Shown here: piece by piece, positions 57,867 to 58,708 of the stretch
How the letters are laid out: every line of letters starts with the position of its first letter
How positions within the stretch are numbered: position 1 is the first letter of the stretch
NCBI RefSeq assembly: GCF_000021485.1
Contig: NC_011761.1
Span: forward strand, 186,001-250,000
DNA: 64,000 bases
Reading direction: 5' to 3'
Source of the DNA: Acidithiobacillus ferrooxidans ATCC 23270
GTDB lineage: Bacteria; Pseudomonadota; Gammaproteobacteria; Acidithiobacillales; Acidithiobacillaceae
Position numbers and translations under genes: made by a program
The notes under the pieces: model-generated
What the model was told of the DNA's origin: nothing
Database searches by the model: none
The model's input: the letters and a program-made list of their open reading frames with translations, nothing else

Positions 57867-57931
57867 GATATCACCCCTTGTCGGCAATGGTGTCGGAGCA
57901 CCATCCTGTGTTCTGAGATGCCCATACGCCC

Positions 57932-57973
57932 ACCATAAGGTGTAGAAAGAGTGTCTGCATTGACAATTATCAA
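57932..57973 (-). promoter_or_regulatory. FNR-type activator site and promoter for the persulfide dioxygenase operon
   Basis: TTGAC-AATT-ATCAA at 57960-57973 matches 9 of 10 fixed bases of the FNR consensus (TTGAT-4-ATCAA). On the minus strand TATGGT (57937-57932) is a fair -10, giving a start at about 57925. The box centre (57966.5) is then exactly at -41.5, the class II activation position. A second imperfect palindrome, GTTGACC-GATTT-GGTTAAC, lies just upstream at 57975-57993. The adjacent gene upstream is an FNR-family regulator. Confidence 0.65.
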
Positions 57974-58006
57974 AGTTGACCGATTTGGTTAACTAACAGC
58001 GGAGGT

Positions 58007-58708
58007 TCAGGCGCGGGTGCCGTCGCTGCTGGCGTACAGGAATAGGTTTTGGGGATCGGGAATCTCGATTTGCCCCTTGTGTTCGTGGAGCAGCCTGTGG
58101 CGTTTCAGGTCCGCCATGATGCGGCTGACGTGCTCGGTGGAAAGGCCGAGAAACTCCCCCAGGTCCTGACGAGTGAGGGGGAAAGGCGCCGCGCGTTGTT
58201 GCGGGTAGGCGCCGACCCATTGGCAGAGGAATGTGGCCAGCCGGGCATCGGCCTTTTTGGCACCCAGTTCGACGATGCGGTCCTCGGCTTCCTGCAGTGC
58301 CTGCTGCCAGCGCGCGAAAATGGCTTCACGCACCGCTGGGAGACGCTGGGAAAGCGCATCCAGTGCCCTCAGTTCCAGGCGGCAGAGATCGGTGCCGGTC
58401 AAGGTAATGGCACTATGACGATGCCGATCGGTGCGCAATCCTTCAAAACCCAGGAGGTCGCCGTGGTGGAGCAGGCGAACGATCTGAGCGTGACCATTGG
58501 GCAGACTCTTGACCAGCTTGATGCCGCCCTGACGAAGCGTATAGGCATATTGCGCAGGATCGCCCTCGTGATAGATCGTCGTTCCCGCCGGGACGTGGAT
58601 ATCCTGGACGTCCATACCGAGTTCGCAGACTTCTTCCCTGCTCAACCCGGCAAATATGCTTTGTCCGCGCATGAGGCAATGCACACAGTCGGAGTGCCTG
58701 GCAGTCAC
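58007..58708 (-). CDS. CRP/FNR-family transcriptional regulator
   Basis: 233 residues: cyclic-nucleotide-type beta barrel (about 20-130), dimerisation helix (135-160) and a C-terminal HTH with LTRQDLGEFLGLSTEHVSRIMADLKR. The recognition helix has E192, S195 and R196, the ExxSR pattern of FNR that reads TTGA. Cys8, Cys11 and Cys109 line up with three of the four FNR cluster cysteines (20, 23, 122). The third position (29) is Ser17, with Cys28 further along, so a 4Fe-4S cluster is uncertain. GTG start overlaps trmB (GTGA). Confidence 0.9.
   Translation of the reverse strand: MTARHSDCVHCLMRGQSIFAGLSREEVCELGMDVQDIHVPAGTTIYHEGDPAQYAYTLRQGGIKLVKSLPNGHAQIVRLLHHGDLLGFEGLRTDRHRHSAITLTGTDLCRLELRALDALSQRLPAVREAIFARWQQALQEAEDRIVELGAKKADARLATFLCQWVGAYPQQRAAPFPLTRQDLGEFLGLSTEHVSRIMADLKRHRLLHEHKGQIEIPDPQNLFLYASSDGTRA

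Follow-up and report, generated by a model that had tools for sequence, protein, structure and literature searches.

A probable FNR-dependent class II promoter joins a Crp/Fnr regulator gene to the sulfide and persulfide oxidation genes of Acidithiobacillus ferrooxidans

Overview of the locus

Positions 57925-57973 of the analysed DNA most likely form a class II FNR-dependent promoter that is activated by the Crp/Fnr regulator FNR_AF and drives sdo, an uncharacterised gene (hyp) and sqr at low oxygen, a reading to which we give a probability of roughly three in four. All positions are those of the window, the 64,000-nucleotide stretch analysed here (positions 186,001-250,000 of the single-contig A. 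ferrooxidans genome of 2,982,397 bases), unless genome positions are indicated. Judged from sequence comparison, the box/promoter switch is very probably genuine; from it we infer the binding of FNR_AF, the direction of activation, the transcript start, co-transcription through sqr and the nature of the signal.

On the minus strand, the genes are arranged in the order trmB, fnr, a 140-nt gap, sdo, hyp and sqr. The trmB gene (58705-59400, TIGR00091 above the cut-off) overlaps the start of fnr, and the two are probably co-transcribed. The fnr gene (AFE_0270, 58007-58708, GTG start) encodes FNR_AF, with the Pfam domains cNMP_binding and HTH_Crp_2, and the window agrees in sequence with the primers published for cloning AFE_0270 (PMC6659574). 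The product of sdo (AFE_0269, 57177-57866) was found to carry the metallo-beta-lactamase domain of an ETHE1-type persulfide (sulfur) dioxygenase, and GSH-dependent SDO activity has been reported for it (PMC6335251). The conserved ATG at 57866 was adopted as the sdo start in preference to the TTG of the open reading frame list, which lies further upstream at 57887; the predicted leader is then 59 nt long. An inverted repeat within this predicted leader (ATGGTG-CTCCGA-CACCAT, 57887-57904) is kept only in part among relatives. The sulfide:quinone oxidoreductase gene sqr (AFE_0267, 55295-56422, minus strand) showed Pyr_redox_2 and SQR-type NCBIfam matches, and its overexpression resulted in SQR activity with a phenotype confined to anaerobic growth (PMC12016491). 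Between hyp and sqr lie 124 nt, a gap wide enough for sqr to have a promoter of its own.

The gene between sdo and sqr (AFE_0268 position, 56547-57164, minus strand) encodes a protein without a family match in Pfam, NCBIfam or PADLOC. Eighteen of its orthologues were aligned. The predicted structure (model pLDDT 69), which shows two similar helix-strand-strand-helix units with invariant histidines (H68, H70, H76, H82, H112, H114 and H174), had no PDB fold match at E <= 0.001.

An FNR-type box at -41.5

The FNR-type box at 57960-57973 reads TTGATAATTGTCAA on the minus strand and TTGACAATTATCAA on the plus strand, and matches 9 of the 10 fixed bases of TTGAT-N4-ATCAA, so that the earlier description of the site as one base off the consensus, made from the sequence-only reading, is correct. 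On the minus strand it is followed by 22 nt and then by the -10 hexamer TATGGT (57932-57937), which shares four of six bases with TATAAT; with the predicted transcript start placed 7 nt downstream of the hexamer, at 57925, the box centre (57966.5) falls at -41.5, and both the gap and the arithmetic of that same reading held. The site thus has the box close to the consensus, centred about -41.5 from a start defined by the -10 hexamer, that would be expected of a class II FNR-dependent promoter. A degenerate -35 element, ATGCAG (57955-57960, minus strand), overlaps the box, and T-34 and G-33 in the alignment would fit such an element. A simple sigma-70 scan of the window did not list a promoter at the box, which is no surprise for a class II promoter whose -35 is poor.

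Within the 64-kb window alone, the box match was at chance level (1 seen, 1.07 ± 1.06 expected from dinucleotide shuffles of the window, with up to one mismatch allowed), and the case for the box therefore rests on the comparison among relatives.

Conservation of the box and its spacing in Acidithiobacillaceae

A search of 29 genomes of the family yielded 19 loci at which a clear fnr orthologue is accompanied by the linked downstream genes. All 19 retained the box, and nearly all retained the -10 spacing. In each of them TTGAnnnnnnnCAA was followed by an invariant TGC, with box scores of 8-10 out of 10, and the box was located at or just past the fnr stop codon. Its distance from that stop codon varied (-4, overlapping; +11; +32 to +40), which means that coding constraint does not explain the box. 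When a -10 matrix was scored at all gaps after the box, a single peak was observed at 22 nt (equivalent to -41.5) with a mean of 2.45 bits, the next best gap reaching -1.43. The 22-nt score was reached by none of 5000 shuffles of 10 divergent representatives, a count that is not a strict probability because the representatives are related. Column by column, the box core, the TGC (T-34, G-33 and C-32, each with 2.0 bits across the 19 loci), A-11 and T-7 (both present in 18 of 19 loci) were conserved, and the spacer was mostly unconserved. In genome G028 the box scored only 8/10 and the -10 match was at 23 nt instead of 22; G027, which is 69% complete, had a perfect 10/10 box. The comparison with relatives by which the earlier reading could be checked thus came out in its favour, as the family preserves box, invariant TGC and -10 spacing despite the varying distances from the fnr stop. 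The AFE_0268 homologue was the only downstream gene present in every orthologous locus, always downstream of fnr and the box.

These results bear on two alternative explanations. That the box is a chance palindrome, or another conserved element such as a terminator, an RNA element or the site of another regulator, was plausible from the window alone, where the match is at chance level, and quorum-sensing work has put forward a lux-type box for AFE_0269 (PMC7984328). A chance match is rejected on conservation and spacing, and the explanation as a whole is very improbable given the fixed -10 spacing, its persistence through three losses of sdo and with relocated sdo genes (described below), and the lack of any terminator-like structure found at the box. 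As for the quorum-sensing candidate, the prediction paper makes no mention of AFE_0269 in its main text. We also regard it as quite improbable that FNR_AF acts here as a repressor, for instance by occluding an overlapping promoter. A GATAAT within the box does resemble a minus-strand -10, but relatives do not keep this hexamer (TTGATTTTT, TTGACAAAT) as they keep the -41.5 spacing to the downstream -10, and sdo transcripts were higher, not lower, under anaerobic conditions (PMC12016491).

The box outlasts sdo

Eight genomes lacked sdo at the locus, and the box was kept in all eight. The regulator tree splits these genomes into three groups, corresponding to three losses of sdo, and the remnants differ in two of the loss groups, being C-terminal in one (KTIDVAVPANRLGG) and N-terminal in G008 (MFFRQIFHEASSTYTYIL). 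Copies of sdo located elsewhere, in G015 (contig 35) and G010 (contigs 11 and 46), were preceded by the box and TGC; the G015 copy has a stop codon within the matched frame and no adjoining fnr, and the sequence upstream of the box differs between the two G010 copies. In a second group of sdo genes (about 50-54% identical), the box was found in none of nine copies, and in the A. thiooxidans-like group sqr is located elsewhere, without the box. A box strictly tied to sdo is rejected, since the box outlasts three sdo losses, and as a refinement the sequence comparison suggests that the site is a feature of the promoter and not specifically of sdo. With this refinement, the earlier proposal of a local circuit controlling persulfide oxidation is supported: the conserved box and spacing and the adjoining regulator, published as a [4Fe-4S] protein, speak for it.

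Separately, in three genomes an sqr gene is closely preceded by a 51-codon open reading frame similar to the cysteine-pair region at the N-terminus of FNR (about residues 2-37); these short FNR N-terminus-like frames are at G011:C130:2420-2518, G012:C191:18362-18469 and G014:C64:18763-18870.

FNR_AF is an FNR-like regulator

The regulator combines a cNMP-type sensor domain and a Crp helix-turn-helix with the recognition helix E192-H-V-S195-R196, so the ExxSR helix previously attributed to the gene upstream of the box is indeed present in the product of 58007-58708. This helix is insufficient to assign the regulator, as two further Crp/Fnr paralogues in the genome also have ExxSR. FNR_AF scored 87.5 bits against the E. 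coli-type Fnr model PRK11161 of NCBIfam, below the curated cut-off of 228. Instead of the E. coli set of four cysteines (20, 23, 29, 122), it has C8, C11 and C109 together with S17, all four invariant among ten aligned orthologues in which C27 is variable. With three cysteines and a serine, and a reported [4Fe-4S] cluster (PMC6659574), the protein is FNR-like rather than canonical. A serine was proposed as the fourth cluster ligand in the same paper (PMC6659574), and the invariance of S17 in the alignment favours this assignment and weighs against the alternative cysteine C27.

The published protein was brownish, contained about 4.5 Fe per monomer and showed the spectrum of an Fe-S cluster, assigned as [4Fe-4S]; the cluster decayed slowly in air, with decay complete after 210 min (PMC6659574). 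FNR_AF activated the E. coli PnarG promoter to about 70% of the level of E. coli FNR, and fnr_AF transcripts rose in anaerobic stationary phase (PMC6659574). That study, which concerns the same regulator, reported that the region upstream of fnr lacks an FNR site and says nothing of the downstream operon (PMC6659574); the downstream site went undiscussed, although the reverse cloning primer covers most of the box.

Whether one of the two paralogues (genome positions 781737-782369 and 1428757-1429416) could be the main user of the box was considered in this context. Both carry the ExxSR helix (PETLSR, PETFSR), and the boxes of a globin-like gene and hcp have the same -41.5 layout. The paralogues look NO-type (DNR/HcpR-like), are without the N-terminal cysteine pair and lie near the globin-like gene and hcp. 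Against their being the main user, fnr and box adjoin in all 19 loci, and the box is kept in G028 (98% complete) and G027 (69% complete), in each of which the FNR_AF orthologue is the sole Crp/Fnr helix-turn-helix protein above the cut-off. We consider this explanation unlikely; cross-talk between FNR_AF and the paralogues is possible.

Similar sites elsewhere

Across the whole A. ferrooxidans genome, the arrangement box, 22 nt and TANNNT occurred four times compared with none for the control: at the sdo locus, upstream of hcp, upstream of the globin-like gene and once inside a coding sequence. The boxes upstream of hcp and the globin-like gene, with the -41.5 layout (genome positions 1428411-1428452 and 785711-785752; L113 and L112), are each found close to one of the Crp/Fnr paralogues that carry the ExxSR helix, and these promoters are probably NO-responsive. 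The pattern TTGAYNNNNRTCAA gave 13 sites in the genome versus 2 for the reversed control, with more than half within open reading frames. Elsewhere in the family, the TGC-extended motif was scattered and mostly not common between genomes, the relocated sdo of G015 being the exception.

Beyond the family, a metagenome-assembled genome labelled Sulfuriferula (L182, JARLJL010000006.1) contains the entire fnr-sdo-hyp-sqr cluster at 64-69% identity, through either gene transfer or mis-binning, and its box, TTAACAAATGTCAATGC, matches 7/10 bases and is accompanied by TGC. In other Gammaproteobacteria, related FNR-like proteins sometimes have a box just past their own stop codon and are sometimes followed by an sqr-type gene (L083, L086 and L110, the SQR of L110 being 60% identical), a pattern that suggests a broader habit of FNR-like regulators controlling the adjacent gene.

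Proposed mechanism and expression

In the preferred reading, a dimer of FNR_AF, the product of the gene just upstream, would bind the box at -41.5 with an intact iron-sulfur cluster and contact RNA polymerase seated on the degenerate -35 and on the -10 (57932-57937), and this contact would activate sdo-hyp-sqr. The capacity for sulfide and persulfide oxidation would thereby rise at low oxygen, or more generally whenever the cluster is intact; one such case would be the build-up of H2S as sulfur is oxidised anaerobically with ferric iron. In published work, wild-type sdo transcripts were higher during anaerobic sulfur growth, a change obtained by dPCR and written 'sdo12', which may not be specific to AFE_0269, and sqr is not among the genes that the text lists as higher anaerobically (PMC12016491). 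The anaerobic rise in sdo transcripts and the anaerobic-only effect of AFE_0267 are consistent with activation by FNR_AF; neither is a test of FNR.

Because SDO needs O2, activation at low O2 looks paradoxical. This objection does not concern sqr. FNR_AF is unusually stable towards O2, which may lessen the paradox, and so may a promoter that mainly serves sqr and hyp. A related explanation overlaps the preferred reading and differs from it in the signal only: FNR_AF would act here, responding to sulfur or Fe-S state instead of oxygen, in a local feed-forward response to sulfide. The cluster, one cysteine ligand short, takes unusually long to decay in air (210 min), S17 is invariant and C27 is not, fnr is fixed beside sulfide and persulfide genes, and related FNR-like proteins adjoin sqr-type genes in other Gammaproteobacteria (L083, L086, L110). 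However, O2 does break down the FNR_AF cluster, and fnr_AF transcript levels increase in anaerobic stationary phase; we regard a sulfur signal as a possible but minority explanation. More speculatively, and in our view doubtfully, FNR_AF and its orthologues might be dedicated sensors of a sulfide-oxidation module rather than mainly global oxygen regulators, with the three-cysteine, one-serine cluster reading low O2 or sulfur stress and acting chiefly through the adjacent box; regulator, box and AFE_0268-type protein would then be the core, with sdo and sqr as exchangeable clients.

Relation to known systems

The kind of promoter is already known, and the link between FNR and persulfide or sulfide oxidation appears to be undescribed in the literature searched, although a 2009 FNR-regulon prediction (Osorio, Adv. 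Mat. Res., cited in PMC6659574) may include the site; the same search found no native FNR_AF target that had been tested, and it yielded no binding, footprint, transcript-start or mutant data for the promoter. A. ferrooxidans is a main bioleaching organism and switches between oxygen and ferric iron, and the site offers a specific, testable target of FNR_AF that would place the oxidation of sulfide and persulfide under an oxygen sensor. A question that follows is why a dioxygenase that consumes O2 should be controlled by an activator whose action is strongest under O2 scarcity.

Class II FNR-dependent promoters of Escherichia coli have TTGAT-N4-ATCAA at -41.5, a weak -35 and a -10 with conserved A-11 and T-7. 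The promoter described here shares with them the box exactly at -41.5, the weak -35 and the conserved A-11 and T-7, and differs in its sdo-hyp-sqr target, in the invariant TGC after the box and in the position of the site directly downstream of the regulator's own gene. Operons of sqr and pdo are controlled by regulators of the FisR, SqrR, BigR or CstR type, which are thought to sense persulfide through thiols. The A. ferrooxidans locus resembles these systems in its adjoining regulator gene and its genes for sulfide and persulfide oxidation, but unlike these thiol-based proteins the regulator here is an iron-sulfur, FNR-like protein.
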